From the NCBI GenBank assembly GCA_016213405.1, contig JACRAM010000100.1:1-64000 (forward strand): a stretch of 64,000 bases of DNA, written 5' to 3'. How positions within the stretch are numbered: the first letter of the stretch is position 1; every line of letters starts with the position of its first letter. Below the pieces are notes generated by a model. That model was not told the DNA's origin. It saw nothing but the letters and a program-made list of their open reading frames with translations, and did no database searches. The DNA is from Bacteroidota bacterium (GTDB lineage: Bacteria; Bacteroidota; Bacteroidia; Palsa-948). Of the stretch, positions 23,815 to 61,139 are shown piece after piece. Position numbers and translations under genes: made by a program.

Positions 23815-25848
23815 ATGAAAAAAATATTTTCCCACCGCCCTAAACCCCGTAGGATTAGAATTATCCAACGGGGTAAAGGGTGCTATAGATTTTTTGTATT
23901 TCTTCCGCCAGTTGGCGGATTGGTTCTACTTCTCTTTCCATTTAACTTAGGAAGCGCAATCATTCGGCAGGATGCAGCTCAAACCAAATCATCACCCAAA
24001 AAATTTCCGCAGGGATATTTTGTTGAGCCCACCGATTCTTCGCTGAGCATTGCCGGAAACTTCGGGGAGATACGTCCCAATCATTTTCATGCAGGCATAG
24101 ATATTAAAACGGGTGGGAGAGAAGGCGCTTTCATTTATGCCGCAGCCGATGGGTATGTGTCGCGCATAAAAATTTCTCCATGGGGATATGGCAAGTGTAT
24201 TTACATCACGCATCCGAATGGATATGTTACTGTTTACGGACATCTTCAGCGATTGTACGGAAAGATTGCCAAGTACCTGGAACTGGAACAGTACCGGTTG
24301 GAGCAATATGAGGTGGAACTTTTTCCTGATTCAAATTTACTGAGAGTGAAACAATGCGACACGGTTGCCATTTCAGGAAACACAGGTGGCTCGCAATCTC
24401 CGCATCTGCATTTTGAAATCCGCGATGCGGTAACAGAGAACGCGTATAACCCGTTTCTTTTTGGATTCAGGATACATGATACCGTTCCCCCAAAACTAAT
24501 GACGCTTGCCATTTACCCCGTTGAACATCCGTCCTACGGGGTTTATCCTGCGAATGATTCAAGTTCGGTGAATGGAAAAAATGTTCCGAAGAAAATAAAA
24601 GTTTACCCCGTTGGACAAGGTCAAAAGTCCTACGGGGTTTATGGAAGTAAGGGCAAATACAAACTTTCTTCGGCTGAAAAAATAACTGTGAGCGGTGATA
24701 TCGGCTTTGGAATTGAAACGTATGATTATGCCAACATTAAAGAAGCGGGAAAACTGGGAGCATACTCAGTTGATTTATACATTGACGGACATCGGATTTA
24801 TTATCACGAGCTGAACGAAATTTCTTTTGACGAATCCCGCTATGTAAATTCCCTCATTGATTATGCCGAAGAAGCAAAGAGCAATAAGGAAATTCAGAAA
24901 TGTTTTCGTGAAGAGAACAATATGCTTTCTATTTATCAGTGCATGGTGAATGAAGGGTTGTTTCGGTTTGATGACTCGCTTTCTCATCCGGTGAAGTTTG
25001 TGGTAAAAGATTTTTTCGGGAACACTTCAAGTTTGGAGTTCAAAGTTCGGAGTTCGGAGAAGAAAATTAAAACACTCCCAACTCCCAACTCCCAACTCCC
25101 AACTAAAATGAAATGCTCTGACCTTAACAAATACGAAACCGAAAACATAAAAATCGAAATTTCTCCCTGTGCATTGTATTCAGATATTGATTTTGATTAT
25201 TCCATGAGCAAGGATACGCTGCCCGGAACTTTTTCTCCGGTTCACACCATTCACAAAGAAGTGGTGCCCTTGCAAGTCAACTATTCTCTTTCTATAAAAA
25301 CAAAATATCTTTCTAAAAACCTTCAGTCAAAAGCTACCATTGTTTTGCTGGATGGGAAGAATAATATGACGGATCAGAAGGGCAGCCCATCCCTAACCCT
25401 TCCCGAAGGGAAGGGAACTGCACGCCCAAGTTCTCCCCCTTCGGGGGAGTTAGTGGGGGCATTGTGGCTCACCACCCAAACCCGCTACTTCGGGCGTTTT
25501 ACGGTTGCGCTTGATACGGTTGCTCCCACCATCAAGCCATACAATATTTATAATGGCAAGAACATGGCAAAGGCAAAAACAATTTCCATTATCATTTCAG
25601 ATAACCTCACAGGAATTAAATCATATCGCGCCACCATTGACGGCAAATGGGTGCTGATGGAATACGAACCGAAGAAGGCGTTGTTGTTTTATGAATTTCA
25701 GACCCCCACTCTTATCTCCCCCAAAGGGGGAGAGGCTCCTTCCTCCCGACAAGTCGGGACGGGGGAAGGGGTGGCACACACCTTCGTTCTCACTGTTACT
25801 GACGGAAAAAATAATGTCAGCACTTACAAGGTAGAGTTTGTGAGGTGA
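23815..25848 (+). CDS. M23 family metallopeptidase with inserted repeat elements
   Basis: A large LytM-type peptidase (677 residues from the ATG at 23815; an upstream in-frame start at 23752 would overlap the divergent promoter). The catalytic domain (about residues 85-235) has the zinc motifs HFHAGIDIK and HLHFEIRD. Such enzymes cut peptidoglycan cross-links outside the inner membrane. The rest is beta-rich linker. Repeat elements interrupt it in frame at 23844-23874, 24514-24545, 24604-24641, 25029-25105, 25381-25466 and 25701-25777, giving peptides such as TLPTPNSQLPT and SPSLTLPEGKG. The hydrophobic N-terminal anchor itself contains a CCGCCAGTTGGCGG palindrome. Confidence 0.88.
   Translation: MKKIFSHRPKPRRIRIIQRGKGCYRFFVFLPPVGGLVLLLFPFNLGSAIIRQDAAQTKSSPKKFPQGYFVEPTDSSLSIAGNFGEIRPNHFHAGIDIKTGGREGAFIYAAADGYVSRIKISPWGYGKCIYITHPNGYVTVYGHLQRLYGKIAKYLELEQYRLEQYEVELFPDSNLLRVKQCDTVAISGNTGGSQSPHLHFEIRDAVTENAYNPFLFGFRIHDTVPPKLMTLAIYPVEHPSYGVYPANDSSSVNGKNVPKKIKVYPVGQGQKSYGVYGSKGKYKLSSAEKITVSGDIGFGIETYDYANIKEAGKLGAYSVDLYIDGHRIYYHELNEISFDESRYVNSLIDYAEEAKSNKEIQKCFREENNMLSIYQCMVNEGLFRFDDSLSHPVKFVVKDFFGNTSSLEFKVRSSEKKIKTLPTPNSQLPTKMKCSDLNKYETENIKIEISPCALYSDIDFDYSMSKDTLPGTFSPVHTIHKEVVPLQVNYSLSIKTKYLSKNLQSKATIVLLDGKNNMTDQKGSPSLTLPEGKGTARPSSPPSGELVGALWLTTQTRYFGRFTVALDTVAPTIKPYNIYNGKNMAKAKTISIIISDNLTGIKSYRATIDGKWVLMEYEPKKALLFYEFQTPTLISPKGGEAPSSRQVGTGEGVAHTFVLTVTDGKNNVSTYKVEFVR
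23844..23874. repeat. Class B element inside the M23 N-terminus
   Basis: ACCCCGTAGGATTAG and TTATCCAACGGGGT form inverted arms. The same CCCCGTTGGA/TCCAACGGGG or CCCCGTAGGA/TCCTACGGGG pattern recurs at 24514, 24604, 26963, 27045 and 38452. Confidence 0.75.
24514..24641. repeat. Two class B elements in frame in the M23 gene
   Basis: Two copies (24514-24545 and 24604-24641) each start TACCCCGTTG and end CCTACGGGGTTTAT. Each therefore encodes the same ends, YPV at one side and SYGVY at the other, with different loops. Confidence 0.8.
25029..25105. repeat. Low-complexity inverted element in the M23 gene
   Basis: The left arm iterates GTTCGGAG-type steps and the right arm iterates CCCAACT steps. 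They are roughly complementary and separated by an A-rich centre. A related element sits in truA at 43105-43192. Confidence 0.7.
25381..25466. repeat. Class A compound element in the M23 gene
   Basis: Two successive hairpins (CCCTTCCCGAAGGGAAGGG and CTCCCCCTTCGGGGGAG) with flanking pyrimidine-rich and G-rich ends. Read in frame as SPSLTLPEGKG and PSSPPSGELVG. Confidence 0.8.
25701..25777. repeat. Class A compound element in the M23 gene, second copy
   Basis: Hairpin CTCCCCCAAAGGGGGAG followed by a TCCCGACAAGTCGGGA palindrome and a GGGGGAAGGGGTGG tail; read in frame as LISPKGGEAPSSRQVGTGEG. Confidence 0.8.
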
Positions 25849-25870
25849 GAATTTATTACAGAGAATCTCT

Positions 25871-26052
25871 AAATACAGGAAGATTGGAAGAAAGCTCCGA
25901 AGGAGTCCCTTCAGGAGAAGATTGGAAGGTTGGGAAAACATCCATTCTTCCACCATTCCATCCTTTAACTGGTTGCAAGACAAAATGGAAGAATGGAAGG
26001 TTGGAAGATCGGGCTGTTTCTCATTCTTTCATTCTTCCACCATTCCATCCTT
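25871..26052. repeat. Inverted and direct ATTCTTCCACC repeats
   Basis: The 23-mer CATTCTTCCACCATTCCATC (plus CTT) occurs at 25941 and 26030. Reverse-complement relatives (AATGGAAGAATGGAAGG) lie between the copies and at the left edge. No credible gene overlaps this part of the 25849-26551 gap. Confidence 0.75.
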
Positions 26053-26080
26053 CCGGTTTTTAGAGTAAGGAAAAAACATC

Positions 26081-28388: not shown

Positions 28389-28420
28389 AAAGGGAATAAG
28401 GAAATACAGGGAATAAGGGA
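28389..28420. repeat. Left flank repeat of the four-helix gene
   Basis: GGGAATAAGGAAATACAGGG followed by AATAAGGGA, a purine-rich iterated arm. Its inverted counterpart lies at 28895-28942 on the other side of the gene. Confidence 0.7.
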
Positions 28421-28425: not shown

Positions 28426-28830
28426 ATGAACAAAACAAAAAAATATACGGAACCAGAAATTAATAGCTCCTATGTGGAAGAGCCGCATGTTGGTTATAAT
28501 GAAGCAAAAGATTTTACTTCATTAATATGCTGGCAGAAAGCACGTAGTATTAAATTATTTTTTTATGCTAAAATAATTCCTTTAATGCCAAAAGCCGAAG
28601 AATTCAACTTGGCTTTTCAAATGAGGAAATCCTGCGTTAGTATAACAGAAAATATTGCAGAAGGATACGAAAGATTTCATTACCAGGAGTTGTTGCAGTT
28701 TTGCAGAATTGCAAGAGGATCGATGTTTGAATTGAAGGATGATTTAATTACATGCATTGACTTAAAATTTATTTCTGAGGATTTATATAATGAGGGAATA
28801 AAGTTAATTGAGGGGGCAAAGTTACATTGA
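28426..28830 (+). CDS. Four helix bundle protein (23S rRNA-intervening-sequence type)
   Basis: A 134-residue protein. The core (about 32-134) shows the family pattern: FTSLICWQKARSIKL, FNLAFQMRKSCVSITENIAEG and the fourth helix ending EGIKLIEGAK. The family was first seen inside 23S rRNA intervening sequences, but most copies stand alone; function is unknown. The usual C-terminal end (LNGYMKYVKNEK) is present at 28827-28880 in the +1-shifted frame, ending TGA 28881-28883, so one base has probably been lost near 28827. The gene is bracketed by inverted purine-rich repeats. Confidence 0.8.
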   Translation: MNKTKKYTEPEINSSYVEEPHVGYNEAKDFTSLICWQKARSIKLFFYAKIIPLMPKAEEFNLAFQMRKSCVSITENIAEGYERFHYQELLQFCRIARGSMFELKDDLITCIDLKFISEDLYNEGIKLIEGAKLH

Positions 28831-28894: not shown

Positions 28895-28942
28895 AACCCT
28901 ATTGCCTGTATTTCCTGTATATCCCCTATGTCCCTTATATCC
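28895..28942. repeat. Right flank repeat of the four-helix gene
   Basis: CCTGTATTTCCTGTATATCC and CCTATGTCCCTTATATCC, the reverse-complement type of the element at 28389-28420. The pair encloses about 475 bases containing one gene. Confidence 0.7.
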
Positions 28943-28950
28943 TTTCAACG

Positions 28951-30369
28951 ATGAAAAATATTCTTCTCATAGGTGCCGGGCGTTCTGCCTCTACATTAAT
29001 AAAGTACCTGCTTGATAATTCTCAAAAAGAGAACTGGAAGATCACCGTTGCTGATATTTCTCTTGAACTCGCTGAGCAGAAAACAAATCATCATTCAAAT
29101 GCGCATGCCATTGCTTTGGATATTAATAATGAAGAGCAACGAGCTGCAGAAATCAGTAAGGTTGACTTGGTTATTTCCATGCTTCCCGCCACCATGCATC
29201 TGCCTGTGGCGAAAGAATGTTTGAAGCAGAAAAAACATCTGGTCACTGCAAGCTATGTTTCCAAGCAGATGAAAGAATTGGATGCGGATGCAAAAAAAGC
29301 GGGCGTAATTTTTCTGAATGAGATTGGATTGGACCCGGGCATAGACCATCTTTCCGCCATGAAGGTGATTGATGAAGTGAAAGCCAAAGGCGGAACGATG
29401 ATAACTTTCAAATCCTATTGCGGTGGATTAGTAGCTCCCGAATCAAACGATAATCCATGGGGATATAAATTCACCTGGAACCCGCGTGCTGTGGTGATGG
29501 CAGGGCAGTCTGGTGATTCCACCGGAGCAACTGCTCAGTTTCTAGAGGATGGAAAAACAAAATATGTTCCTTACACAAGATTGTTTTCGAATGTTGAAAC
29601 AATTTCTGTGGACGGTTGGGGAAAGTTTGAAGCATACGCCAACCGCGATTCTCTTTCTTATATGGAATTGTACGGATTACACGATGTAAAAAATATGCTT
29701 CGCGGCACTTTGCGTATGCCCGGCTTCTGCAAAGCGTGGAATGCCTTCATTCAACTCGGGCTTACGGATGATAACTGCAAAGTCTCTAACTCTTCAACTA
29801 TTTCTTACGCTGAACTGATTGATTCCTTTTTGCCCTCACCCCATCCCTCACCCCGAGGGAGAGGGAGAAAGGGAGAGGGCTCTGTAAAAAAGAAACTGGC
29901 AAAGTTTCTCCGCGAAAAAGATAACTCCCCTGTAATGAAAAAGCTGGATTGGCTTGGCCTATTTAAGAATCAGAAAATAGGTTTACAAAATTCATCTCCC
30001 GCAGAAATTCTTCTTGACTTATTAATGAAGAAATGGAGTTTGAAAGAACACGATAAAGACATGGTGGTGATGCAGCATCTTTTTGAATACAAAGAACCAA
30101 GTCTCAAGTCTCAAGTCTCAAGTCTCAAGAGAACAGCCAAAGGCAAAATTCAGAAACTAACTTCATCGATGGTTGTGATAGGTGATGACCAGATTAATAC
30201 TGCCATGTCAAAAACAGTTGGGCTTCCACTCGCAATTTCTACCAAACTTATTCTGAACGGAAAAATAAATCTTACTGGTGTGTGGATTCCTACTGTAAAA
30301 GAAATTTACAATCCTGTTCTGGCGGAACTGGAAAAATTTGGAATTACATTTATAGAAAAACATAACTGA
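28951..30369 (+). CDS. Saccharopine dehydrogenase family protein
   Basis: A 472-residue NAD(P)-dependent enzyme of the saccharopine dehydrogenase/LYS9 group, acting in lysine metabolism in the cytoplasm. The N-terminal Rossmann motif is ILLIGAGRSAS (about 4-14). Further marks are VISMLPATMHLPVAKEC, NEIGLDPGIDHLSA (about 124-137) and SYCGGLVAPESNDNPWGYKF. Two repeat elements are read through in frame: PSPHPSPRGRGRKGEGS (29832-29882) and SLKSQVSSLK (30098-30129). Both lie between conserved blocks, so the fold is likely intact. Confidence 0.9.
   Translation: MKNILLIGAGRSASTLIKYLLDNSQKENWKITVADISLELAEQKTNHHSNAHAIALDINNEEQRAAEISKVDLVISMLPATMHLPVAKECLKQKKHLVTASYVSKQMKELDADAKKAGVIFLNEIGLDPGIDHLSAMKVIDEVKAKGGTMITFKSYCGGLVAPESNDNPWGYKFTWNPRAVVMAGQSGDSTGATAQFLEDGKTKYVPYTRLFSNVETISVDGWGKFEAYANRDSLSYMELYGLHDVKNMLRGTLRMPGFCKAWNAFIQLGLTDDNCKVSNSSTISYAELIDSFLPSPHPSPRGRGRKGEGSVKKKLAKFLREKDNSPVMKKLDWLGLFKNQKIGLQNSSPAEILLDLLMKKWSLKEHDKDMVVMQHLFEYKEPSLKSQVSSLKRTAKGKIQKLTSSMVVIGDDQINTAMSKTVGLPLAISTKLILNGKINLTGVWIPTVKEIYNPVLAELEKFGITFIEKHN
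29832..29882. repeat. Class A element inside the saccharopine dehydrogenase gene
   Basis: CCCTCACCCCATCCCTCACC followed by CCGAGGGAGAGGGAGAAAGG: one pyrimidine arm and one purine arm. In frame, no stop. Confidence 0.85.
30098..30129 (+). repeat. CAAGTCT tandem iteration inside the same gene
   Basis: Four copies of CAAGTCT (period 7) encode SLKSQVSSLK. There is no obvious inverted partner nearby. Confidence 0.75.
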
Positions 30370-30475: not shown

Positions 30476-31765
30476 ATGCAAAAAAAATCCAACCTTGTTC
30501 CGATTTTCATACTGGGAGCATTGTTTTTTATTTTCGGTTTTGTTACCTGGCTCAACGGAACCCTCATTCAGTATTTGAAAATCGCCTGTGAGTTAAACAC
30601 GTTTCAATCTCTTTTAGTAGCGTTTGCATTTTACATTTCCTATTTCGTAATGGCGCTTCCTTCTTCATGGGTGCTGCAAAAAACTGGTTTCAAAAAAGGA
30701 ATGATGCTCGGATTATTCGTGATGGCTGGCGGTGCTTTACTTTTTATTCCTGCCGCTCATTCGCGTACTTACGAATTATTTCTTCTCGGACTTTTTGTAA
30801 TCGGAACAGGTTTGTCCATTCTTCAAACTGCCTCTAATCCTTATATAACCATAGTAGGTCCGATTGAAAGCGCAGCGGCAAGAATCAGCGTGATGGGTAT
30901 TTGCAATAAAGCGGCTGGCGTGCTGGCGCCAATTATTCTTGGTGCCATTGTTTTGTCAGATGCCGATGCGTTGGTAAAAGAATTACAGCAATTGGATGAA
31001 GCGCAAAAAATCATTAAGCTGGATGAACTTGCTTTACGTGTGGTTCTTCCTTATTCTTTAATGGCGGCTGTTCTGATACTCCTTGGATTGATGATTTATT
31101 TTTCTCCGCTTCCTGAAATAGAAGATGCTGCCCCCTCCAACTCCCCCGATGGGGGAGGGTTGCGTGGTCGATCTCCCTCCCTTCGGGATGGTCGGGGTGG
31201 GCTTGGTATTTTCCAGTTTCCGAATTTAGTTCTTGGCGTTATAGCGCTTTTTCTTTATGTTGGTGTTGAAGTAATGGCAGGTGATACCATCGGCAATTAC
31301 GGTCAATCACAGGGAATTTTATTATCCGAAACAAAAAATTTTACTGCTTATACTTTAATTGCAATGGTGATAGGATATATTGTTGGAATTCTTACAATAC
31401 CTAAACTAATTTCACAGGCATTTGCTCTTTCTATTTCTGCAATAATTGGCATTATATTTACCATTATAGCAGTAACCACTCGGGGATACACTTCTGTTCT
31501 CTGCATTGCATTGCTCGGACTTGCAAACGCGTTGATGTGGCCTGCTATCTGGCCTCTTGCCATTCACGGCTTGGGAAAATTCACCAAGACAGGTTCTGCA
31601 TTGCTCATCATGGCGATTGCCGGAGGCGCAACACTTCCTCTTCTCTACGGAAAACTTGCCGACATTTCTTCCATCGGACATCAGTATGCCTATCTGATAA
31701 TGATTCCCTGTTATCTTTTCATTTTATATTACAGCATTAAAGGATATAAAATTTCTAAATGGTGA
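30476..31765 (+). CDS. FucP-like sugar MFS transporter
   Basis: A 429-residue carrier with twelve membrane helices, of the fucose/glucose/galactose:H+ symporter branch. The first helix has FILGALFFIFGFVTWLNGTL, typical of FucP-like proteins; further on are NPYITIVGP and LANALMWPAIWPLAIHGLGKFT. A class A repeat element (31128-31203) is read in frame in the large cytoplasmic loop between helices 6 and 7 as SNSPDGGGLRGRSPSLRDGR. That loop is not conserved in the family, so transport should be unaffected. Confidence 0.9.
   Translation: MQKKSNLVPIFILGALFFIFGFVTWLNGTLIQYLKIACELNTFQSLLVAFAFYISYFVMALPSSWVLQKTGFKKGMMLGLFVMAGGALLFIPAAHSRTYELFLLGLFVIGTGLSILQTASNPYITIVGPIESAAARISVMGICNKAAGVLAPIILGAIVLSDADALVKELQQLDEAQKIIKLDELALRVVLPYSLMAAVLILLGLMIYFSPLPEIEDAAPSNSPDGGGLRGRSPSLRDGRGGLGIFQFPNLVLGVIALFLYVGVEVMAGDTIGNYGQSQGILLSETKNFTAYTLIAMVIGYIVGILTIPKLISQAFALSISAIIGIIFTIIAVTTRGYTSVLCIALLGLANALMWPAIWPLAIHGLGKFTKTGSALLIMAIAGGATLPLLYGKLADISSIGHQYAYLIMIPCYLFILYYSIKGYKISKW
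31128..31203. repeat. Class A element in the MFS central loop
   Basis: Two successive hairpins, AACTCCCCCGATGGGGGAGG and CTCCCTCCCTTCGGGATGG, with a GGTCGGGGTGGGC tail; stop-free in the reading frame. Confidence 0.85.
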
Positions 31766-33262: not shown

Positions 33263-33700
33263 ATGAAGATGAAAAAAATAGTTCTCAGCTTAGCTTTCAC
33301 ATTAATTATTCTCCCTTCCCTTTGGGAAGGGTCGGGGATGGGTTTACACGCGCAGTGCGATACCATCGCTTCCATTTGTGCGAAGCATATCATGTCGCCC
33401 TACATTTCTGACGGACAACAATACCGCGCGCTTCTGCTTTCTGATCAGAATGCGGAATTTCATACCACATTTTATGGCGGAGGAACGTATCGCATCGCTG
33501 CCTGCACTGGCTTGAAAGATGGCAATCTTATTTTTTCAGTGTTTGATGAAGAGCGCAATCTTCTTTTTACAAATAAGGAATATAGAAATGCTTCTTACTG
33601 GGATTTTAAAGTGACTTCAACACTGGATGTAATTCTTGAAGCGACTCTCGGAGGCGCCCAGTCAGGATGTGCGGTAGTATTAATCGGCTTTAAACAATAA
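33263..33700 (+). CDS. Small secreted protein with a repeat-derived signal peptide
   Basis: A 145-residue protein. The signal peptide is unusual: MKMKKIVLSLAFTLII is followed by LPSLWEGSGMG, encoded by a class A hairpin at 33311-33342, before the cleavage-like LHAQC. The mature part (about 32-145) is beta-rich with a Gly-rich FYGGGTYRIAACTG and the end SGCAVVLIGFKQ. I do not recognise the family. It is probably co-transcribed with the lipoprotein upstream; the gap between them (33197-33245) holds a further class A-like hairpin. Confidence 0.65.
   Translation: MKMKKIVLSLAFTLIILPSLWEGSGMGLHAQCDTIASICAKHIMSPYISDGQQYRALLLSDQNAEFHTTFYGGGTYRIAACTGLKDGNLIFSVFDEERNLLFTNKEYRNASYWDFKVTSTLDVILEATLGGAQSGCAVVLIGFKQ
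33311..33342. repeat. Class A element inside a signal peptide
   Basis: CTCCCTTCCCTTTGGGAAGG plus GTCGGGGATGGG. The hairpin is read as LPSLWEGSGMG in the signal peptide of the 145-residue protein. Confidence 0.8.
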
Positions 33701-38340: not shown

Positions 38341-41268
38341 TTATTTTACCACAGAAACCTTCTTCGTAACAGTTCCCTCATCAGTTTTTATATTCAGTTG
38401 ATAGATGCCAGAGGGTGCATCAAGGTTAATGGTTAATGGTTCATGGTTTACCCCGTTGGAATTGTTTCCTACGGGGCTAATGGTTGATGTAAATACTTTT
38501 TCTCCAAGCACGTTGTAGATTTCAATGGTTGATCCATTAGCCATTAAACATTGCACATTAAACATTCCGTTAGATGGGTTCGGATAAACTGTAAACTGAT
38601 TACCGATAACTGATGACTGATTTATCCCGGTTGTTGACAAGGGTCCGTCCCACACCTGAAATTCATCCAGCGCGGCTTCTGATACACTTTGTCCGTTGCT
38701 CGGAAGAGATGCAATGGTGCTGTCTGAAGCGGTGAAGCGCACTTTCATTTGAGCGGTGAAAGTGGTATAGTCAAGCACCTTGAAAGCAAATCTTCTCCAG
38801 TTCACATCTGAATAATAGGTGTCTTCCATTTTTGTCCAGGTAGTTCCGTTGTCGTTCGAAATTTCTGCCACCCATGGATCGTTGCCCGGATTTGAACCGC
38901 CAACATCTGAGTAAGAACGATAATAAGTAATTGCCGGATTTGTGAAACTTGCCAAACTGAAAGAAGGAGATTCAATTCGTGTAGTGCCTCCGTCAATGTC
39001 GGCTGTTCCGATAGGATCGCTTGCGGAACCTGCATTGCCGGTTACAGCGCAATTTGTTCCGCTCTGTGCTGTGCCGGGCTGAACATTGCCTGAAGCAACG
39101 GGTGCGGCAATAATCCATGTTCCGGTGCTGTTGCCTAAACTAACAGGAGTCCACGTTCCGAAATCCTGCCCATCGCCCATATCGCTGTACAAACTTGCGT
39201 TGGGTGTGAACCCGACCATTATATAATAAGGAATGTTTCCGGGACTGAAATCAGTTCCTGTTGGAGTAATAATTCCTCCTACTTCAAAATAATACTGAAC
39301 AATGGTTCCTGCCGATTGCCCGGGAATTGTTCCGCTCAGCGTTGGAGAACTGTAAGTCATGGGCGATGAATTCCACGGCAGAGAATTGCTTGTTCTCCAG
39401 AATAAAGTTCCTCCGGAAAGGGTGCATATGCTACTTGATGCAGTGGCATTTGCTGTAATGTTGATGGTTGTATTTGGGGTTGCAGTTAAAACAGGTGTAT
39501 GCGTAACGGTTATGTTGGTGTACAATGTAATGCCGTGTGCTGAAAATGCCGGAAGAATAGCTCCGCTGTTTGGCGTCCCGTTGCAGATGTTGCCGTCATT
39601 GTCATCTGCCTGAAGCGCGGCAATGAGCACATCCATGTAAACCTGTCCTTCAGCACCATCGGGACCATTCGGACCGGCAGGAAAAGTTTTTATAAATAAA
39701 TCAGACATGAAGGCAAGATTGTTTCCCATATTCAGATTAACTTCCCACCAGGCACCGGCAATAATTTCTCCATCGGCATGAACTTCGCCCACAATATCCT
39801 GTGGATACACTTTCCTGTTGGGCGGATCATATCTGCGGATTCCGCTTTGGTTCGCTGTGTAAAATCCTTCACCGATAATAGGGCTGTTGGTGATAGACAT
39901 TCCCCAAACGTCAGAATAACCTTCACCCATTGCTCCGTTTGAAAAAGATTGACTGTAAAAACTATAGATGTCATAATTTAATCCGTGACCGTATTCGTGA
40001 TACACCACATCATTAATAATAGAAGTTGCGTTGCAGCCACCGCCAGCAGCATAAAAATTCACAGCGCCATTATAGAACGCATTGCAGCTTCCGGAAACAT
40101 CCACGTAGGTATTAATGGGGATATCTTCTGTTGTAAAGGTTGTTAATTGCGGAAGCGATTTCATGAAATCATGAACGATGTTGACGTGATAGTATGCAGA
40201 GCGTTCGCGGTCATTTGAATTGCTATCGAATGAAACAGTAGGATTGCCTGTGATGTTTGAGGTCATGGATGGAGTAGTGGTTCCTGTCATCGTGTTGGAG
40301 TACAATCCTTCCAGCGTGAGTGTTGCGTTTCCGGTATTCACATTGGTTGCAACGCCCATCGCATCAGTATAAGTAGTTCCGCCCGAAACAATTTTCAGGT
40401 GAGGCAATCCAACAACTCCTGTCATCGGGTTTCCATAAGGATTGGTCAGGTAAATGGTTCCGTTCACAGTTACTGTTGCCTGCGTACTCGGAGCGAAATG
40501 GTCAACTTTATTTTTCCGGTAAAGAATTTTTCCATCATTGGCATCTACGAGCGTATAATATTTAGTGGGAACTTTGTTGATGTCATCATACGTTTCAACA
40601 TAAACTTCATACACTAAATGATATTCATATTTGCGATATTGAGGAACAGGAAGGATTTTTAATCCTTGTTCTGCATAAGAGTTAGTGATTGTTTCTGTAA
40701 AACCATTTTTCGCGAAGTTGAGGGCGGCATCTTCAGTAATAGAAGCAGAGGTGCTGATATTGATTCCGGAAAACACATCTGTCTTGAAATAGACAACTTC
40801 TCCCGCCTTTGTCATTTTAATCATCACGCGGCTGTCTAACACTTTCAGCCCTTGATACGTTTGAAAAAAATTTGCGTAATCAAACTTCTCGGCATTTGTT
40901 GTAACACTTTTTAATGAAAGGTCAGCCAGCGGAAGTTTAAAGCTGAGCAGTTGTGTATTGATAAAGTTCAACGCTTTGTCCTGCACGGTTGCGCCCGAAA
41001 CAGGAATCGGCTCACCATACGCCATGACGGGCTTTTGATTTTCTTCGTTGAACAGAACGCTCCATGAAGGATTGTTGTCATAGAATGATTTCCAGGCAGA
41101 ACTCTTCCGCAGAAGAGTTTGGTAGCTGTCGTCCGGCACACGTTTGTTATCGGTAATGTAGCGCACTTCGTAGCGGGTATCATTCGCCACAAAGTTGCTC
41201 GAAGCAAAAGCAGCGCTGCTGATTCCAATAGAAAAAAGCAGAATGGAAGAGTAAAATTTTGACTTCAT
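38341..41268 (-). CDS. M36-like secreted metallopeptidase with T9SS sorting domain
   Basis: About 975 residues from the internal ATG at 41268, chosen because it opens a normal signal peptide (KSKFYSSILLFSIGISSAAF). The N-terminal propeptide resembles FTP. The catalytic part has the zinc site HEYGH (near residue 423) and the downstream GEGYSDVW, as in M36 fungalysins. A jelly-roll-like region follows, then a type A sorting domain with YPNPSNGMFNVQ and GIYQLNIKTDEG. Repeat-derived linkers lie before and inside the sorting domain (38424-38487 and about 38585-38625). Confidence 0.88.
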   Translation of the reverse strand: MKSKFYSSILLFSIGISSAAFASSNFVANDTRYEVRYITDNKRVPDDSYQTLLRKSSAWKSFYDNNPSWSVLFNEENQKPVMAYGEPIPVSGATVQDKALNFINTQLLSFKLPLADLSLKSVTTNAEKFDYANFFQTYQGLKVLDSRVMIKMTKAGEVVYFKTDVFSGINISTSASITEDAALNFAKNGFTETITNSYAEQGLKILPVPQYRKYEYHLVYEVYVETYDDINKVPTKYYTLVDANDGKILYRKNKVDHFAPSTQATVTVNGTIYLTNPYGNPMTGVVGLPHLKIVSGGTTYTDAMGVATNVNTGNATLTLEGLYSNTMTGTTTPSMTSNITGNPTVSFDSNSNDRERSAYYHVNIVHDFMKSLPQLTTFTTEDIPINTYVDVSGSCNAFYNGAVNFYAAGGGCNATSIINDVVYHEYGHGLNYDIYSFYSQSFSNGAMGEGYSDVWGMSITNSPIIGEGFYTANQSGIRRYDPPNRKVYPQDIVGEVHADGEIIAGAWWEVNLNMGNNLAFMSDLFIKTFPAGPNGPDGAEGQVYMDVLIAALQADDNDGNICNGTPNSGAILPAFSAHGITLYTNITVTHTPVLTATPNTTINITANATASSSICTLSGGTLFWRTSNSLPWNSSPMTYSSPTLSGTIPGQSAGTIVQYYFEVGGIITPTGTDFSPGNIPYYIMVGFTPNASLYSDMGDGQDFGTWTPVSLGNSTGTWIIAAPVASGNVQPGTAQSGTNCAVTGNAGSASDPIGTADIDGGTTRIESPSFSLASFTNPAITYYRSYSDVGGSNPGNDPWVAEISNDNGTTWTKMEDTYYSDVNWRRFAFKVLDYTTFTAQMKVRFTASDSTIASLPSNGQSVSEAALDEFQVWDGPLSTTGINQSSVIGNQFTVYPNPSNGMFNVQCLMANGSTIEIYNVLGEKVFTSTISPVGNNSNGVNHEPLTINLDAPSGIYQLNIKTDEGTVTKKVSVVK
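38424..38487. repeat. Class B element inside the sorting domain of the peptidase
   Basis: TTTACCCCGTTGGAATTG and TTTCCTACGGGG form the core hairpin, flanked by iterated TAATGGTT steps. It is read in frame (SPVGNNSNGVNHEPLTIN) between two beta strands of the T9SS domain. Confidence 0.75.
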
Positions 41269-42587: not shown

Positions 42588-43469
42588 CTAAACTAACTGC
42601 CACTCTTTCTCCGCAGTATTTTGAAAGATGGCAGAAAATTCAGTTCGTGCAGGAATATCTAAGAAAGGATAAACAACTTTAGAAAGATAAAGCCCTTGCG
42701 GATAGGCGAATTCAAGATTGGATTGTGATTCTTTTTTGATTAAATAGTTTTCAAACTCATCAACAGAAATTTCATTCGTTCCGACTTTCAGAAGTTTGGC
42801 TACAATCGCCCGAATCATTCCGTGCAAAAACCGGTCGGAAGAAATTTGAAAGCGAAGTTTATCCCCTTTGCTATCACAAAATAATTTTGCGGAAGAAATA
42901 GTGCAATGCGTGTGCTTGTATTGGTCGGGAGATTTGCAGAGCGCGCGGTAGTCTGTATGTTTTTTGAGAAGTGAAACTGCTTCTTTCATTTTATCTAAGT
43001 TCAAGTTCTTTTCTAAATAAAATGAACTAACGTTGCTGAGGAAAGGGTCTTTATATGTGTGAATGAAGTAATCGTAGGTTCTTTGTTTGGCGTCATACTG
43101 CGCGTGTGGAAGTGCGGAGTTCGGAGTGTGGAGTTTGGAGTTGGGAGTTTGGAGTTGGAGGTTTTCTCCGACCTCCGTACTCCCAGCTCTCATCTCAATT
43201 ATATCAAAAATGGCAATATCGGCAGGCAGCATTTTGTTTAAGCGAAACAGTAAATCGAAATCCCATTTCTCTTTTATATCTGCATGAAAAAAATATTGGC
43301 TGGCGTGCACTTGTGCGTCTGTTCGCCCACAACCTAAAATGGTGGTTGGCTCTTTTAATATTTTGCTGAGGTTTTCTTCCAGCACTTGCTGAATGCTCAT
43401 AAACTCCGATTGCCTTTGCCAGCCATGGTAATGGAAGCCGTTATAACCGATATGGAAGAAATATCTCAA
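42588..43469 (-). CDS. truA: tRNA pseudouridine synthase A
   Basis: A 293-residue enzyme that makes pseudouridine at tRNA positions 38-40. The catalytic Asp is D51 in CGRTDAQVHA; RTYDYFIHTY and ISSDRFLHGMIRAIV are typical. A low-complexity insert (about residues 95-121, containing LQTPNSKLHTPNSAL) comes from the inverted repeat element at 43105-43192. It sits in the loop before HAQYDAKQRTYDY, so the active site should survive. Promoter TAACTTTG at 43498-43491. Confidence 0.93.
   Translation of the reverse strand: MRYFFHIGYNGFHYHGWQRQSEFMSIQQVLEENLSKILKEPTTILGCGRTDAQVHASQYFFHADIKEKWDFDLLFRLNKMLPADIAIFDIIEMRAGSTEVGENLQLQTPNSKLHTPNSALPHAQYDAKQRTYDYFIHTYKDPFLSNVSSFYLEKNLNLDKMKEAVSLLKKHTDYRALCKSPDQYKHTHCTISSAKLFCDSKGDKLRFQISSDRFLHGMIRAIVAKLLKVGTNEISVDEFENYLIKKESQSNLEFAYPQGLYLSKVVYPFLDIPARTEFSAIFQNTAEKEWQLV
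43105..43192. repeat. Low-complexity inverted element inside truA
   Basis: The left arm iterates GGAGTTCGGAGTGTGGAG-like steps and the right arm contains CTCCGACCTCCGTACTCCC. The arms pair imperfectly. Related to the element at 25029-25105. Confidence 0.75.
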
Positions 43470-44555: not shown

Positions 44556-45146
44556 ATGACAAAGCCCCTCCTGAATCCTCCCCGTTGGGGAGGACTTTTA
44601 ATTAGTGTATTGCATTCTCCCTCCCCAATGGGGTGGGCAGGGGTGGGGCTTCTTTTTCTTTTTCTTTTTTCCTGCGGAACCGAAAACGTTAAACCAAAAC
44701 AAAAAGCTAATCCATCCCAATTCAAAGAACAGTTAGTGAAAGTGAACAAATACGAAATGGAAAAAGAATCAGATGAGATAAATCAATACATAGCGCGCCA
44801 CAACTGGACTATGGAAAAAACAGGAACGGGATTGCGTTATCTTTTTCTGAAACAGGGAACAGGCGATTCTGCCCGCTCTGGCGATAATGTGAAAGTGAAT
44901 TATAAAATCTCTTTGTTTGACGGAACAGAATGCTATTCCTCCGACAAAGACGGAGCATACGAATTCAAAGTGGAAGGCGATGCGATTGAGAGCGGTCTGC
45001 ACGAAGCGATTCAATTGATGTGTGTTGGAGATAAAGCAAAATTCATTCTGCCTTCTTACATGGCGCATGGCTTGCACGGGGATGATGCAAGCATTCCGCC
45101 TCTTTCAACGATAGTAGTAGATTTAGAACTTTTAGAGATAAGATAA
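44556..45146 (+). CDS. FKBP-type peptidyl-prolyl isomerase lipoprotein, GldI-like
   Basis: A 196-residue lipoprotein. The FKBP domain (about 90-196) has RYLFLKQGTGDSARSGD, a shortened VKVNYKISLFDGTECYS, AIQLMCVGDKAKFILPSYMAHG and a closing VVDLELLEI. It lies immediately behind the NrnA-like gene, the usual neighbourhood of gldI, whose product is needed for gliding motility in Flavobacterium. The signal peptide is abnormal: its start codon and first 32 residues (TKPLLNPPRWGG onward) are encoded by a class A repeat, and only then comes VGLLFLFLFSC with the lipobox Cys. Confidence 0.85.
   Translation: MTKPLLNPPRWGGLLISVLHSPSPMGWAGVGLLFLFLFSCGTENVKPKQKANPSQFKEQLVKVNKYEMEKESDEINQYIARHNWTMEKTGTGLRYLFLKQGTGDSARSGDNVKVNYKISLFDGTECYSSDKDGAYEFKVEGDAIESGLHEAIQLMCVGDKAKFILPSYMAHGLHGDDASIPPLSTIVVDLELLEIR
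44558..44653. repeat. Class A element forming a signal peptide, copy 1
   Basis: A 96-base element with AATCCTCCCCGTTGGGGAGG as the left hairpin and a CTCCCTCCCCAATGGGGTGG right hairpin. It is matched over its full length by 45151-45246 with about ten differences. Confidence 0.9.
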
Positions 45147-45148
45147 AA

Positions 45149-46096
45149 ATGACAAAGCCCCTCCTAAATCCTCCCCGTTGGGGAGGACTTTTAATTAATG
45201 TATTGCATTCTCCCTCCCTAACGGGGAGGGTTGGGGTGGGGCTTCTCTTCTTTTTATTTTTCTCCTGCAGCGATTCTCCCTTTCCTGATTTCACAAAAAC
45301 AAAAAACGGGCTTTACTACAAACTCATAGATATTGGCGAGAGCGATAAAAGAGCGAAGCCGGGGGATTATGTAACCGTTCAGATGATTATTAAATCAGAA
45401 AAGGATTCTATTCTTTATGATACAAGAAGAATCGGGTTGGACGGATCAGTGACATTCCTGCTTACTACTCCCCAGCAGGAAAAAGATTACCGTGAAGGAT
45501 TTCAATATCTCTCCGAAGGAGACAGCGCGGCTTTCATCACGGATGCCTATGCTTTCTACATGAAGAAAAATAATAAGCCCGTTCCGATGGGAATGAAAAT
45601 GGAAAGCATTATTAAAGTGCAAGCGCGTGTTTTGAAAATCCGCACGCCAGAGGAACACGCAAAAGACATGCTCATTGAAAAAGGAAAACTCGAACAGGCG
45701 GAATTCGAAGAAAAAAAAATCCTTGATAAATACATGGCGGACAGTTCCATTCCGGCTCAGCTGATTGGAAACGGAATGTATTACATAAAGCTTCAGGAAG
45801 GAAAAGGATTAACCCCCGATTCCGGTAGTGTTGCTCTTCTGAATTATCGGGGAAGTTTTCTGAACGGAAGATGTTTTGATTTCTTTTTTGAAAGCCAGCC
45901 CTTCGAATATATGGTAGGGCAGGAAGATCAATTAATCAAAGGTTTAGAGATAGGAGTTCGCAGGATGCACGAGGGTGAAAAAGCCAAATTTATTATACCT
46001 TCGCACCTCGCTTTTGGAAGCAGCGGTTCATCCACAGAAATTGTTCCGCCATTCACAACAGTGATCTATGAAGTTGAATTATTAAAAGTGCAATAA
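45149..46096 (+). CDS. FKBP-type peptidyl-prolyl isomerase lipoprotein, second of four
   Basis: A 315-residue lipoprotein with two FKBP-like halves. Residues about 50-150 form a degenerate domain (YYKLIDIGESDKRAKPGDYV); residues about 205-315 form the second (YYIKLQEGKGLTPDSGSV, RRMHEGEKAKFIIPSHLAFG, VIYEVELLKV). Several active-site aromatics are missing in the first. As in the gene before, the start and the first 30 residues come from a 96-base repeat element; the lipobox is FFLFFSC. Two bases separate it from the upstream gene. Confidence 0.83.
   Translation: MTKPLLNPPRWGGLLINVLHSPSLTGRVGVGLLFFLFFSCSDSPFPDFTKTKNGLYYKLIDIGESDKRAKPGDYVTVQMIIKSEKDSILYDTRRIGLDGSVTFLLTTPQQEKDYREGFQYLSEGDSAAFITDAYAFYMKKNNKPVPMGMKMESIIKVQARVLKIRTPEEHAKDMLIEKGKLEQAEFEEKKILDKYMADSSIPAQLIGNGMYYIKLQEGKGLTPDSGSVALLNYRGSFLNGRCFDFFFESQPFEYMVGQEDQLIKGLEIGVRRMHEGEKAKFIIPSHLAFGSSGSSTEIVPPFTTVIYEVELLKVQ
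45151..45246. repeat. Class A element forming a signal peptide, copy 2
   Basis: Same element as 44558-44653 with equal length and the same relation to the start codon. The sequences after the two copies diverge at once, so the match is confined to the element and the hydrophobic region. Confidence 0.9.
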
Positions 46097-48768: not shown

Positions 48769-48802
48769 GACCCCTCCCTATCCCTCCCCAAAGGAGAGGG
48801 AA
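48769..48802. repeat. Class A element left of the DUF559 domain
   Basis: CCCCTCCCTATCCCTCCCC against AAAGGAGAGGG; starts immediately after the panB stop codon. Together with 49173-49208 it brackets about 370 bases that encode the DUF559 domain. Confidence 0.8.
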
Positions 48803-48834: not shown

Positions 48835-49887
48835 ATGTGGAACCTGCTTCATGACAAAGCTATTCACATGCGACAAAACCCTACTCAGGCAGAGATGGCG
48901 TTATGGCAATCGGTTAGAGTAAATGCATCCGGATACCATTTTAGAAGACAGCATATTATTGGAAAATTTATAGTAGATTTTTTATGCCTCTCAAAAAAAT
49001 TAGTTGTGGAAGTTGATGGAGATATTCATGATTACCAAAAAAAAGAAGATGAAGAGAGAACAAATTTCCTTAATGAAAATGGATTTAAAGTAATTCGCTT
49101 TAAAAACGAGGAAGTCTTAGGAAATGTGGATTGTGTTGTAGAAAAAATTAAAAAATATCTCGAATTGTCTGAGCCCTCTCCCCTTCGGGGAGAGTTGGAG
49201 AGGGGTGGTATTCATATTTTGTTTGAAGACAACCATCTCATCGCGATAAATAAAAAACCTTCCGAGATTGTTCAGGGCGATAAAACAGGGGATGAACCAC
49301 TCAGTGAAAAAGTAAAAGAGTATTTACGAAAAACATATAACAAACCGGGAGAAGCATATCTCGGTGTGGCGCACCGCATTGATAGACCAGTAAGCGGAGT
49401 TGTCATCTTTGCAAAGACGAGTAAAGCCCTTTCACGTTTGAATGAAATGTTTCGCGATAAAGAAATAAAGAAAACCTATTGGGCAGTTGTTAAAAACAAA
49501 CCTGCTTCAGAAAGCGGACATCTGATTCATTATCTGAAAAAGAATGAGCAGAAAAATATGTCACGCGCTTATGATAAAGAAACCCCGGGTGCATTAAGAT
49601 CAGAAATGGATTATAAAATACTTTTCAGCTCTGATAATTATCACCTGATGGAGTTAAAGCCTCAGACAGGAAGGCATCATCAGATTCGGGTGCAGTTATC
49701 CGCTATCGGCTGTCCGATAAAAGGCGATATCAAATATGGTTTCAGAAGGACGAACGAAGATGCATCCATTCACCTTCATGCTAGGAAGGCAGAGTTCATG
49801 CATCCTGTTAAGAAAGAACCCATAATCATTATCGCAAACCCTCCCAATGAAGTGCTGTGGAATTTCTTTTCTGAAAAAGTGAAATAG
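48835..49887 (+). CDS. DUF559 endonuclease-like domain fused to an RluA-family pseudouridine synthase
   Basis: About 350 residues from the ATG at 48835. Residues about 8-112 form a DUF559 (Vsr-like restriction fold) domain with MRQNPTQAEMALWQSV, FRRQHIIGKFIVDFLC, VVEVDGDIHDYQ and FKVIRFKNEEVL. A linker encoded by a class A repeat (SEPSPLRGELERGG) leads straight into an RluA-type synthase (about 126-350) with the catalytic Asp in AHRIDRPVSGVV and TGRHHQIRVQL. The synthase has no start codon of its own except an in-element TTG at 49195-49197. An upstream ATG (48748) would overlap panB. Confidence 0.85.
   Translation: MWNLLHDKAIHMRQNPTQAEMALWQSVRVNASGYHFRRQHIIGKFIVDFLCLSKKLVVEVDGDIHDYQKKEDEERTNFLNENGFKVIRFKNEEVLGNVDCVVEKIKKYLELSEPSPLRGELERGGIHILFEDNHLIAINKKPSEIVQGDKTGDEPLSEKVKEYLRKTYNKPGEAYLGVAHRIDRPVSGVVIFAKTSKALSRLNEMFRDKEIKKTYWAVVKNKPASESGHLIHYLKKNEQKNMSRAYDKETPGALRSEMDYKILFSSDNYHLMELKPQTGRHHQIRVQLSAIGCPIKGDIKYGFRRTNEDASIHLHARKAEFMHPVKKEPIIIIANPPNEVLWNFFSEKVK
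49173..49208. repeat. Class A element at the DUF559-RluA junction
   Basis: CCCTCTCCCCTTCGGGGAGA followed by GTTGGAGAGGGGTGG. It is read in frame as PSPLRGELERGG and joins the two domains. Confidence 0.85.
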
Positions 49888-55497: not shown

Positions 55498-55540
55498 ATT
55501 TCTCTCCCGCACTAAGCAGGAGCTTAGCGCGTACTGGGGA
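55498..55540. repeat. Direct repeat left of the toxin-antitoxin cassette
   Basis: TTATTTCTCTCCCGCACTAA followed by GCAGGAG, then GCTTAGCGCGTACTGGGG. CGCACTAAGC-AGGA-GCTTAGCGCG is a 10-bp hairpin. The same 27-base left part and TTAGCGCGTACTGGG right part recur at 56228-56289. Confidence 0.85.
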
Positions 55541-55655: not shown

Positions 55656-55657
55656 AA

Positions 55658-55951
55658 TTATAAATTTTTGTATTTCTTTTTGTAATCTTGCTTGCATGCA
55701 AACACGCGCAAAATAAAAATTACATTTTCCTCCATGCTGAAAATAATTACATACGGGAATTTCTGAACATACATTTCCCGCGTGAACCTGTATTTATTCG
55801 GATAGGCAAGCGGATGGCGTTTTATATTATCAATAGAATCGAAAATCACATTGGCAAATCTGCCGCCAAGATTTTCCTGTTGTTTATTATACCATTCTTT
55901 TGCATGAACAATATCGCTGACGGCTTTGTCAGTAATTATTAAACGGTACAT
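55658..55951 (-). CDS. RelE/ParE family toxin
   Basis: A 97-residue toxin. The pattern MYRLIITDKAVSDIVHAKEWYN, then GRFANVIFDSIDNIKRHPLAYP and FPYVIIFSMEENVIFILRVFA, is that of the ParE/RelE superfamily (a ParE-like branch that hits gyrase, or a ribosome-dependent RNase; not decidable here). Its ATG (55951) shares a base with the antitoxin stop codon (TGATG), so the two are coupled. Confidence 0.88.
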   Translation of the reverse strand: MYRLIITDKAVSDIVHAKEWYNKQQENLGGRFANVIFDSIDNIKRHPLAYPNKYRFTREMYVQKFPYVIIFSMEENVIFILRVFACKQDYKKKYKNL

Positions 55952-56184
55952 CACTTCTTTGCTTTGCCGTAAACTGCTGACTGTGCTTGTTCGAGAGAGT
56001 AATATTTCAGTTTTCCGGCTTTGTGCTCTGCCAATGTTTTATCTAATTCTTGTTTTTGCGCATCGGATAAAATGCTTTCTTCTCCCGAATGAAGTTTCAG
56101 CACTTTATACACCACTTCCAAAACATTCTCTTCTGCTTCATCAATGTATTGATGTACTTTTTTACGGATGGCTGTTGTTGTCAT
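55951..56184 (-). CDS. Antitoxin of the ParE/RelE pair
   Basis: A 77-residue protein. The helical N-terminal part (TAIRKKVHQYIDEAEENVLEVVYKVL) resembles Bacteroidota addiction-module antitoxins, and the acidic C-terminal half (ILSDAQKQELDKTLAEHKAG) would wrap the toxin. It is the first gene of the operon, which is normal for this type; it likely also represses its own promoter. Confidence 0.82.
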   Translation of the reverse strand: MTTTAIRKKVHQYIDEAEENVLEVVYKVLKLHSGEESILSDAQKQELDKTLAEHKAGKLKYYSLEQAQSAVYGKAKK

Positions 56185-56227
56185 TGTAGTTTTATTTTAA
56201 TACAAAGGTAAGAAATTATACTTGAAA

Positions 56228-56289
56228 ATTATTTCTCTCCCGCACTAAGCAGGAGCCCTGCCTGCAGGCAGGCAGATTAGCGCGTACTG
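56228..56289. repeat. Direct repeat right of the toxin-antitoxin cassette
   Basis: Same ends as the repeat at 55498-55540, but the hairpin loop is enlarged by CCTGCCTGCAGGCAGG, a perfect palindrome. It ends 4 bases before the stop codon of the gene at 56294. Confidence 0.85.
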
Positions 56290-56293
56290 GGTC

Positions 56294-60386: not shown

Positions 60387-60423
60387 AACTTTTATTTTTT
60401 AATTGTTTGTGTTTCTGTTTTTG

Positions 60424-60707
60424 AATCTACGAAAAACGAAAGGTTACGAAAAATACGAAACGGAGTTTGGTGTTTGGTTTTCATCTTTCGTATTTTTCGT
60501 ATTGATTCGCGTTTCGTTGATTGGGGAAGTCAACTATTCTGCCACTGCCCCAAAAAGAAACTTTTCAGGATATTATGGCATGATTAGCTTTAGAAATATG
60601 ACAGGCGGGAGGGGATATTAATAAGGTATGACAGAATGGCTATGTAAGATGTAAGAGGGCAAAGGGCAGATGTGTTTCCCCTCTGCCGTCTGCCATTATA
60701 CATCTTC
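60424..60707. repeat. Gene-free stretch with two inverted elements
   Basis: Element 1 (about 60424-60520): iterated ACGAAA steps on the left (CTACGAAAAACGAAAGG) and TTTCGTATTTTTCGTATTG on the right. Element 2 (about 60635-60707): AGGGCAAAGGGCAGATG against CTCTGCCGTCTGCC, with TGTAAGATGTAAG and TACATCTTCC as outer arms. The outer right arm overlaps the end of the arsC gene. No gene is seen in 60387-60695. Confidence 0.65.
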
Positions 60708-61139
60708 CATTAATTTCTTCACCTTTTCCTCAATCATATCCCTCACCTTCCTGAACTCCTCTTTATTCATGTCTTTCGGTTGAGGAATCTGCCAGTCGAG
60801 GCGGTGTTTGGCTGGAATGAACGGACAGGCATCTCCGCAGCCCATGGTGACAATGTAATCCAATGCCTCACCCCTTCCCTCTCCCAAGGAGAGGGAGTTC
60901 ATTACTTCATCAATAGATTTTGATTGGTGAGTTGTCAGATCGTATCCAACTTCTTTCATTGCATCAATTGCCTTAGGATTAATTTTGCCGGAAGGTTTTG
61001 ATCCTGCACTGAAAACTTGTATTTCATTTTCTCCCTTCCCTTGGGGAAGGGATGGGGATGGGCAGTGTATTCGTGCAAACGCTTCCGCCATCTGGCTTCG
61101 GTTGGAGTTTTCGATGCAGACAAATAATATTTTTTTCAT
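60696..61139 (-). CDS. arsC: Arsenate reductase, low-molecular-weight phosphatase type
   Basis: A 147-residue thioredoxin-coupled ArsC. The P-loop is VCIENSNRSQMAEA (Cys8 and Arg14 of CX5R), and the resolving cysteines are in TMGCGDACPF (about C101 and C105). It reduces arsenate to arsenite. Two class A repeats are read in frame in loops: CPSPSLPQGKGENE (61031-61062) and NSLSLGEGRGEAL (60867-60898). The conserved VFSAGSKPSG and DWQIPQPKD remain intact, so activity is plausible. 17 bases behind arsM. Confidence 0.9.
   Translation of the reverse strand: MKKILFVCIENSNRSQMAEAFARIHCPSPSLPQGKGENEIQVFSAGSKPSGKINPKAIDAMKEVGYDLTTHQSKSIDEVMNSLSLGEGRGEALDYIVTMGCGDACPFIPAKHRLDWQIPQPKDMNKEEFRKVRDMIEEKVKKLMEDV
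60867..60898. repeat. Class A element in arsC, second insertion
   Basis: CCTCACCCCTTCCCTCTCCC and AAGGAGAGGGAG; read in frame on the minus strand as SLSLGEGRGEA, just before the resolving-cysteine strand. Confidence 0.85.
61031..61062. repeat. Class A element in arsC, first insertion
   Basis: CTCCCTTCCCTTGGGGAAGG and GATGGGGATGGGC; read in frame on the minus strand as PSPSLPQGKGE, between the first helix and second strand of the fold. Confidence 0.85.

Follow-up and report, generated by a model that had tools for sequence, protein, structure and literature searches.

The window analysed here, 64,000 nt of a Bacteroidota bacterium (GenBank assembly GCA_016213405.1, contig JACRAM010000100.1), is part of contig C100 in a genome of 3.65 Mb and 127 contigs (the own genome, G000). 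Its protein genes carry many inverted repeats that are read in frame (Table 1). We designate those with all-pyrimidine or all-purine arms as family P. Directly after the start codon of the RluA gene (ATG at 48767-48769), two such palindromes enclose a DUF559 endonuclease domain and form a full P-DUF559-P element. Elements of this kind are roughly 450-550 bp in size. In another contig of the own genome (L035, G000:C114:35449-36333), two DUF559 genes lie in tandem with their starts 567 bp apart, and the same P palindrome follows each. An earlier sequence-only reading of the window had rightly named the DUF559-RluA gene but left its DUF559 domain unconnected to the palindromes, which are the ends of a DUF559-nuclease element. 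The P inserts of the window appear to be stripped-down copies of an undescribed type of jumping DNA with a DNA-cutting enzyme.

In-frame inserts in the window genes

Translation confirmed that every host gene named in the sequence-only reading carries its insert in frame and without a stop codon. The argument that all-pyrimidine or all-purine arms are stop-free was upheld as well. There are two P inserts each in the M23 peptidase and arsC genes and one each in the genes for saccharopine dehydrogenase (SDH), the major facilitator superfamily (MFS) carrier, the 145-aa secreted protein, FKBP1 and FKBP2; DUF559-RluA has P palindromes at both ends of the DUF559 segment. Iterated arms are found in M23, SDH, truA and the neighbouring FKBP3, and repeats of the type ACCCCGT...ACGGGGT occur three times in M23 and also in M36. 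The reading of these inserts as GC-rich or iterated inverted elements of several families was borne out, but they belong to at least three separate systems and P is not an orphan palindrome.

Hairpins in 120 kb of sequence numbered 26, compared with 0 after mononucleotide shuffling. The folding z-scores were -7.0 and -4.5 for the FKBP2 and FKBP1 inserts and weaker (-1.4 to -2.4) for three other P inserts. Related copies elsewhere in the genome, on which the sequence-only reading depended, are abundant: a P-type pattern has 235 forward places in the own genome vs 3 for the reversed pattern (an initial, narrower palindrome pattern had 4 places only). In 344 kb of the own genome, 38 P elements were located. 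Of these, 19 are inside open reading frames (ORFs) with 150 aa or more, 18 fall in between and one straddles an ORF end. Three of these 18 concern arsC or the secreted protein, which have ORFs shorter than the cut-off. About half of the P copies are thus outside genes, which the sequence-only reading had missed. Since 83.5% of the bases in those 344 kb are coding, P is under-represented at coding sites, and the restriction to loops noted in that reading is what survival would leave. The distribution fits untargeted insertion with loss of harmful copies.

P palindromes flank DUF559 genes

In 21 genomes, we found 77 DUF559 matches (69 full-length); of 62 taken further, 59 had both 160-nt flanks and were used for the flank test. 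P hairpins were found on both sides of 37 and on one side of 16 (at least one side, 53/59); six had none. Among 2265 control spans of equal size from the same loci, 4 had hairpins on both sides, 69 on one side and 2192 on neither (at least one side, 73). A second set comprised 80 named loci, those that ranked best among 575 with similarity to the query; three of them (L181-L183) repeat loci of the first set. Among the 79 with flanks, hairpins were on both sides in 34, on one side in 28 and absent in 17, compared with 0, 65 and 2046 in the controls. Six loci of this set are from Chloroflexi (both sides 1, one side 4, none 1). We also examined eight plasmid loci hand-picked from 39 matching records (Cyanobacteria 4, Proteobacteria 3, Deinococcus 1). 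A perfect hairpin was present on at least one side in 8/8 and on both sides in 3/8; by eye, P-type ends were seen on both sides in 6/8 and on one side in L294 and L296.

Other genes rarely have such flanks: P hairpins were on both sides of none and on one side of one of 27 23S_rRNA_IVP (IVP) genes, and on both sides of one and on one side of five of 29 LeuRS fragments. Y1_Tnp genes had P on one side in 5 of 29 and never on both (0/29), unlike the flanks of a REPIN/RAYT system, and RAYT was rejected as the mover of P. The left and right ends of a DUF559 locus resemble each other above the control 99th percentile in 41 of 57 loci; mispaired ends did so in 32 of 456. P counts follow DUF559 counts with a Spearman coefficient of 0.85 over the 21 genomes and 0.82 with one genome per genus (n = 15). 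It was concluded that flanking by P palindromes is a specific trait of DUF559 genes in Bacteroidota and that P ends also adjoin DUF559 in Chloroflexi, Cyanobacteria, Deinococcus and Proteobacteria.

DUF559 was found in 84 of 198 sampled genomes. Titles and abstracts of the open-access literature yielded, among the matches listed, nothing that connects DUF559 with palindromic ends or with insertion in frame. In three cyanobacterial plasmids (L290, L292 and L297), the DUF559 elements adjoin DUF1156 and BREX PglX methyltransferase genes and possibly interrupt one.

Whole elements inside host genes

Of the 69 full DUF559 hits, 26 lie in open frames of at least 350 aa (one, L046, crosses masked bases). 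Pfam or PDB matches identified the hosts as RecG, TsaD, AcsA, LeuRS, an aminoacyl-tRNA synthetase of IleRS type, MetH, methylmalonyl-CoA mutase, Gmk, IspF, HisD, MazG, helicases and RluA. RecJ, MutS, TsaB, MetRS, HsdR and SpoIIE-type phosphatases were assigned by evident sequence only. The own genome has a RecG with DUF559 (G000:C125) and a mutase copy with DUF559 (G000:C95, by evident sequence only). In alignments to PDB templates, 4 (RecG), 7 (TsaD), 1 (AcsA) and 3 (LeuRS) template residues are unaligned before the host protein resumes. Ten further ORFs were scanned and all ten contain DUF559 together with a host family; the domain is N-terminal in L214 and L222 and C-terminal in L203. P-DUF559-P elements thus appear able to lie without a frame break even in essential genes.

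One loop of the LeuRS editing domain is, by tree labelling, the site of 28 DUF559 copies, and L269 carries a cargo-less P copy at this site. In the 30 loci nearest to the query among 142 genomes, the loop holds DUF559 in one (the source of the query itself), a P mini-element in one and another repeat in two. That repeat, RHPELVSGSDNEMLKQVQHD, is found in L279 and L285, and the loop may be a safe harbour for several repeat families. L180, a record titled Candidatus Paceibacterota, has DUF559 at the usual LeuRS loop, and at 69% identity it is closest to the window copy among the matches listed. A cross-phylum transfer or a binning error is possible.

No Hint or intein family was detected in the ten DUF559-bearing ORFs (Pfam, E <= 1e-8) nor in the RluA fusion of the window (0.01), and inteins were rejected for the hosts scanned. 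An artefact of metagenome-assembled genomes was also rejected, as DUF559-bearing long ORFs occur in strain-titled records (L186, L191, L210, L217, L219 and L232). Transcription terminators were discarded because in LeuRS, RecG and other hosts the palindromes are part of one continuous open frame.

The DUF559 protein and its phylogeny

A DUF559 profile matched PDB entries 3hrl (2.1e-30) and 3r3p, annotated as "mobile intron protein" (9.7e-7). A structure model built from a 55-sequence alignment reached a pLDDT of 86.4 (single-sequence prediction was poor, 46.8). Its best fold matches are 3hrl and the homing endonuclease I-Bth0305I (3r3p, Foldseek 7.5e-5); Vsr ranks 13 and 16. Profile and model both point to a homing-endonuclease fold. 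An alignment of 14 DUF559 sequences has 15 invariant columns, and one of 55 has 13. The ratio of nonsynonymous to synonymous differences (pN/pS) is 0.09-0.22 in six same-site pairs. DUF559 therefore has a predicted nuclease fold and is under purifying selection.

The DUF559 tree was made by a quick search with 136 of 139 rows (those below 86 residues were dropped) and 107 columns; 60 of its 133 inner branches are open. Motifs served to assign the host labels, ten of which were set by hand. The 15 site groups require 20 changes on the tree vs 36.1 in shuffles, hence the copies cluster by site. Three pairs of sister DUF559s are in different hosts with SH-aLRT values of 95-97 (L199/L223, L243/L251 and L216/L220), and the starred branches indicate at least two origins for the LeuRS-site copies. 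L251 (IspF) and L243 (a methyltransferase-like ORF), both from Prevotella, have matching inverted ends around close DUF559s, the outermost left bases of L243 being off the contig. Related P-DUF559 elements thus lie in different genes. At the RecJ site, the DUF559s of L040 and L048 have a pS of 0.28 compared to 0.62-0.71 for their hosts, and the two remaining RecJ pairs have 0.68-0.72. The low value suggests that this site saw a recent exchange. A segment with a transposase and DUF559 is described as a recombination hotspot in the cited part of PMC12308824.

Empty, shared and reused sites in the same genus

Orthologues of SDH, MFS, the secreted protein, truA, FKBP1, FKBP2 and RluA were compared in genomes of the same genus. 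The SDH P insert is missing in 4/4 orthologues, where a short SKGG- or GKGG-type sequence is in its place. The MFS insert is missing in 3/3 (one distant, 54%), the secreted-protein insert in 3/3, the truA insert in 1/1, and the FKBP1 and FKBP2 inserts in four sisters. At the RluA start, sister L169 (G006) is empty and reads ATG|GAAATTC, while L171 (G005) carries a P element without DUF559 at the site of the own element; iterated arms were seen by eye in L170 and L167. G005 (L171) also has P elements of other sequence at the N-termini of both FKBP1 and FKBP2. In sister L087, SDH carries a separate two-hairpin P insert at another loop and, in common with the own genome, the iterated insert; L085 has a P-like insert at the loop used by the P insert of L087.

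The sequence-only reading had expected inserts to be clean additions that orthologues do not share by descent. Most compared sisters are indeed cleanly without inserts and mostly do not share them, but the FKBP1, FKBP2 and RluA sites are filled in G005 and the iterated SDH insert is present in L087. Part of the insert set is therefore common to a sister, by descent or site reuse. Cargo-less P elements occupy the same sites as full elements in other species (RluA in L171, LeuRS in L269).

The iterated and ACCCCGT families

PF05635 (IVP) genes are present in 21/21 genomes, with 23 matches in the own genome. They mostly lie between iterated degenerate arms, often inverted (direct or unclear in L117, L112 and L131). 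Smith-Waterman matching of ends under-detects iterated arms (14/28 IVP loci above the control 99th percentile) and 7-mers were used for this reason. Since 7-mers are noisy (74/193 controls share at least 4), the threshold was set above the control maximum. Inverted 7-mer sharing exceeded it in 10/28 IVP loci, 0/193 controls and 22/756 mispaired ends. This signal is moderate, and the pairing is weaker than that of P with DUF559. With a score of 10, the window IVP copy stays under the control maximum (11), though its arms were recognized by eye. A periodicity score for the arms was weak (8/28 above the control 95th percentile). Rfam gave 0 matches and no rRNA for 23000-62000 at gathering scores; the window IVP copy sits between protein genes. 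The iterated inserts probably belong to protein elements of the 23S intervening sequence (IVS) type. The sequence-only reading was right that they are in frame in genes but overlooked their likeness to the arms around IVP genes.

The same holds for the ACCCCGT...ACGGGGT inserts, which are present in M23 and M36 as reported and whose likeness to the REPs beside Y1/RAYT genes was overlooked. Y1 transposase genes (PF01797) often adjoin REP-like hairpins: hairpins of at least 8 bp and any composition were on both sides of 8 and on one side of 8 of 28. This family may belong with RAYT/REP, a known kind, the window copies being assigned by resemblance only.

Two other repeats were noted in the window. 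Positions 55240-55450 contain about ten (by eye) near-tandem copies of an AT-rich unit of ~21 nt (CAGAGTAGTATTTCACTGCAT), and intergenic GC-rich repeats of another family, CCTGCCTGC..GCAGGCAGG and GCACTAAGCAGGAG, are found in 55000-56290.

Table 1. Repeat elements and associated genes of the window, with the DUF559 element first.
Feature	Position	Strand	Evidence
Full P-DUF559-P element directly after RluA start codon	48770..49209	+	Sister alignment
DUF559 (PF04480) endonuclease domain, in frame with RluA	48850..49161	+	Pfam 5.4e-35; 3hrl and 3r3p profile matches; I-Bth0305I fold match
Left P palindrome of DUF559 element	48770..48800		Imperfect hairpin, missed by strict hairpin test
Right P palindrome of DUF559 element	49174..49206		
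Two-hairpin cargo-less P element, FKBP1 signal peptide	44559..44653		Alignment; fold z -4.5
Two-hairpin cargo-less P element, FKBP2 signal peptide	45152..45246		Alignment; fold z -7.0
P insert, SDH, PSPHPSPRGRGRKGEGS vs short SKGG/GKGG-type sequence in sisters	29834..29882		Translation, alignment
Two-hairpin P insert, central loop of MFS carrier	31131..31205		Alignment; fold z -1.4 only
P insert, signal peptide of 145-aa secreted protein	33311..33348		Alignment
Two-hairpin P insert, M23 peptidase	25383..25462		Hairpin count, translation
P insert, M23 peptidase	25703..25777		Hairpin count, translation
P insert, arsC, NSLSLGEGRGEAL	60863..60902		Translation
P insert, arsC, CPSPSLPQGKGE	61030..61063		Translation
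23S_rRNA_IVP four-helix-bundle gene, candidate cargo of iterated-arm family	28426..28830	+	PF05635 1.3e-24
Left iterated arm of IVP element	28390..28420		By eye
Right iterated arm of IVP element, inverted	28897..28943		By eye
Iterated CAAGTCT insert, SDH; also in sister L087	30100..30132		Alignment
Iterated two-arm insert, truA; not in the one sister compared	43108..43200		Alignment
Iterated two-arm insert, M23 peptidase	25020..25106		Translation
ACCCCGTTGGA..TCCTACGGGG repeat with iterated arms, M36 sorting domain	38420..38500		Translation
ACCCCGTAGGA..TCCAACGGGGT repeat near M23 N-terminus, probably REP-like	23843..23882		Likeness to Y1_Tnp flanks by eye

Interpretation and alternative explanations

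We consider it likely that the P inserts are cargo-less copies or remnants of a mobile element composed of a palindromic end, a DUF559 gene and a mirror-image end. In the proposed mechanism, DUF559 as a nuclease of the Vsr/I-Bth0305I type would cut the DNA of the target or the donor, at the element or close to it, and the element would then be copied in by repair or replication, as in homing. If the cargo is lost from between the ends, two-hairpin minis would remain, which may still be mobilised by DUF559 in trans. Because the all-pyrimidine or all-purine ends lack stop codons, insertions of the right length stay translatable. The inserts would be translated as read, and those in surface loops or N-termini would survive selection. 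By analogy, the iterated inserts could be what is left of IVP-type elements, and the ACCCCGT repeats what is left of RAYT/REP.

A number of observations weigh against a mobile DUF559 element. No target-site duplication was seen, and cutting and movement by DUF559 are what we infer from sequence. The signal of exchange comes from a single RecJ pair, the gap being small or absent in other close pairs, and most same-site LeuRS copies have diverged to about the same extent as their hosts, which is what vertical inheritance would give. The P sites common to the own genome and G005 may reflect common descent or repeated use. Strict P hairpins are missing from 6/59 and 17/79 DUF559 copies. The own genus, where the slope is steepest, dominates the copy-number relation, and the presence/absence test over 15 genera gave only p 0.04. 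G016 has two DUF559 matches and zero P pattern hits, and G007 has two matches with 6 P hits vs 8 for the reversed pattern. Conversely, four of five DUF559-negative genomes have 1, 1, 6 and 9 P hits (reversed 0, 0, 1 and 2). Finally, the Caulobacter DUF559 protein VsrA is needed for the DNA-damage response in cells without a methylase and is proposed as a Vsr-type mismatch-repair enzyme in the part of PMC12907096 cited here; nuclease activity alone does not imply mobility.

In one alternative, P would be an independent family, like the Rickettsia palindromic elements (RPE) or REPIN, spread by another, unseen enzyme, with DUF559 homing into P palindromes at any location. The few P hits in DUF559-negative genomes, the homing-endonuclease fold predicted for DUF559 and the excess of cargo-less P in the own genome (235 pattern places vs 7 DUF559 matches) would agree with it. 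We regard it as unlikely, however, since the two ends match each other in a locus-specific manner and related DUF559s in different genes have matching ends, as expected of one unit; P abundance also follows DUF559 abundance. It is quite improbable that DUF559 is a host Vsr-like mismatch-repair nuclease and the palindromes terminators or hairpins around an often-transferred gene, with fusions arising by chance or selection. The role of VsrA and the presence of Vsr among the fold matches speak for such an enzyme, but palindromes flank DUF559 inside the LeuRS and RecG frames, a position that rules out terminators. Moreover, the elements use several unrelated loops and genes, and the same sites hold cargo-less copies. 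That the in-gene repeats are drifted low-complexity coding sequence formed in place by replication slippage or template switching, with no insertion at all, is very improbable. All-pyrimidine or all-purine tracts and iterated 6-8-mers are slippage-prone and template switching makes palindromes, but most compared sisters are cleanly without the repeats, hundreds of dispersed copies have a common architecture, and the same arrangement recurs around DUF559 in several phyla.

A bolder proposal can also be made, which we put forward tentatively and with somewhat less than even confidence. DUF559 elements would be a categorically new class of bacterial mobile DNA, namely unspliced, translation-transparent homing transposons. 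With a Vsr-fold nuclease that acts on the palindromic ends, they would move from gene to gene, between genera and perhaps even between phyla. In essential genes they would be maintained as additional domains that are always translated, sometimes giving the start codon (IspF and Gmk N-termini), and they would seed genomes with non-autonomous copies by the hundreds, whose encoded peptides remodel proteins. IVP/S23 elements would have arrived at this lifestyle as a second, independent invention.

Comparison with known systems and significance

RPE are short palindromic families found in frame in unrelated protein genes, where they are tolerated (Ogata et al., 2000, 2002; as summarized in the cited part of PMC10969869). 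The resemblance to RPE suggested by the sequence-only reading stands in that the window palindromic inserts are in frame in genes of unrelated function, belong to several families and are mostly missing from sisters; the full form with a DUF559 nuclease was overlooked. They differ from RPE in lineage and in the full-length nuclease form of P, the cited part of the RPE account naming no enzyme, and the likeness seen is one of architecture. With REPIN/RAYT, as outlined in the cited portion of Bertels and Rainey (PMC3116915), P shares two facing palindromes as the mini form, one protein family beside them and many cargo-less copies. The P enzyme is a Vsr-like DUF559 and not a Y1 transposase, however, and complete P elements are found within protein-coding genes. 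Homing endonuclease elements (I-Bth0305I, inteins) share the nuclease fold, the insertion in conserved genes and the reuse of the same site, whereas P-DUF559-P lies in one open frame with the protein and has palindromic terminal repeats and cargo-less copies. Unlike inteins, it comes with no intein domain in the hosts scanned (introns were not searched for in hosts). The window IVP gene is of the same protein family as the S23p ORF of 23S rRNA IVS and, by eye, appears to lie between complementary arms as well (cited section of PMC4990558), but it is located between protein genes and not in rRNA, and cargo-less iterated relatives are found in protein genes. Caulobacter VsrA has the DUF559 domain and is implicated in DNA damage in vivo; the cited part of PMC12907096 treats it as a repair enzyme and mentions no palindromic element.

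DUF559, a common family that Pfam still calls a protein of unknown function, gains a testable role, and palindromes inside protein genes gain a candidate enzyme. The proposal can be tested directly in cultured hosts, among them Cellulophaga baltica and Flavobacterium cucumis. Proteins as basic as leucyl-tRNA synthetase are seen to have acquired a nuclease domain through insertion in frame, a finding relevant to the way protein domains arise from mobile DNA.

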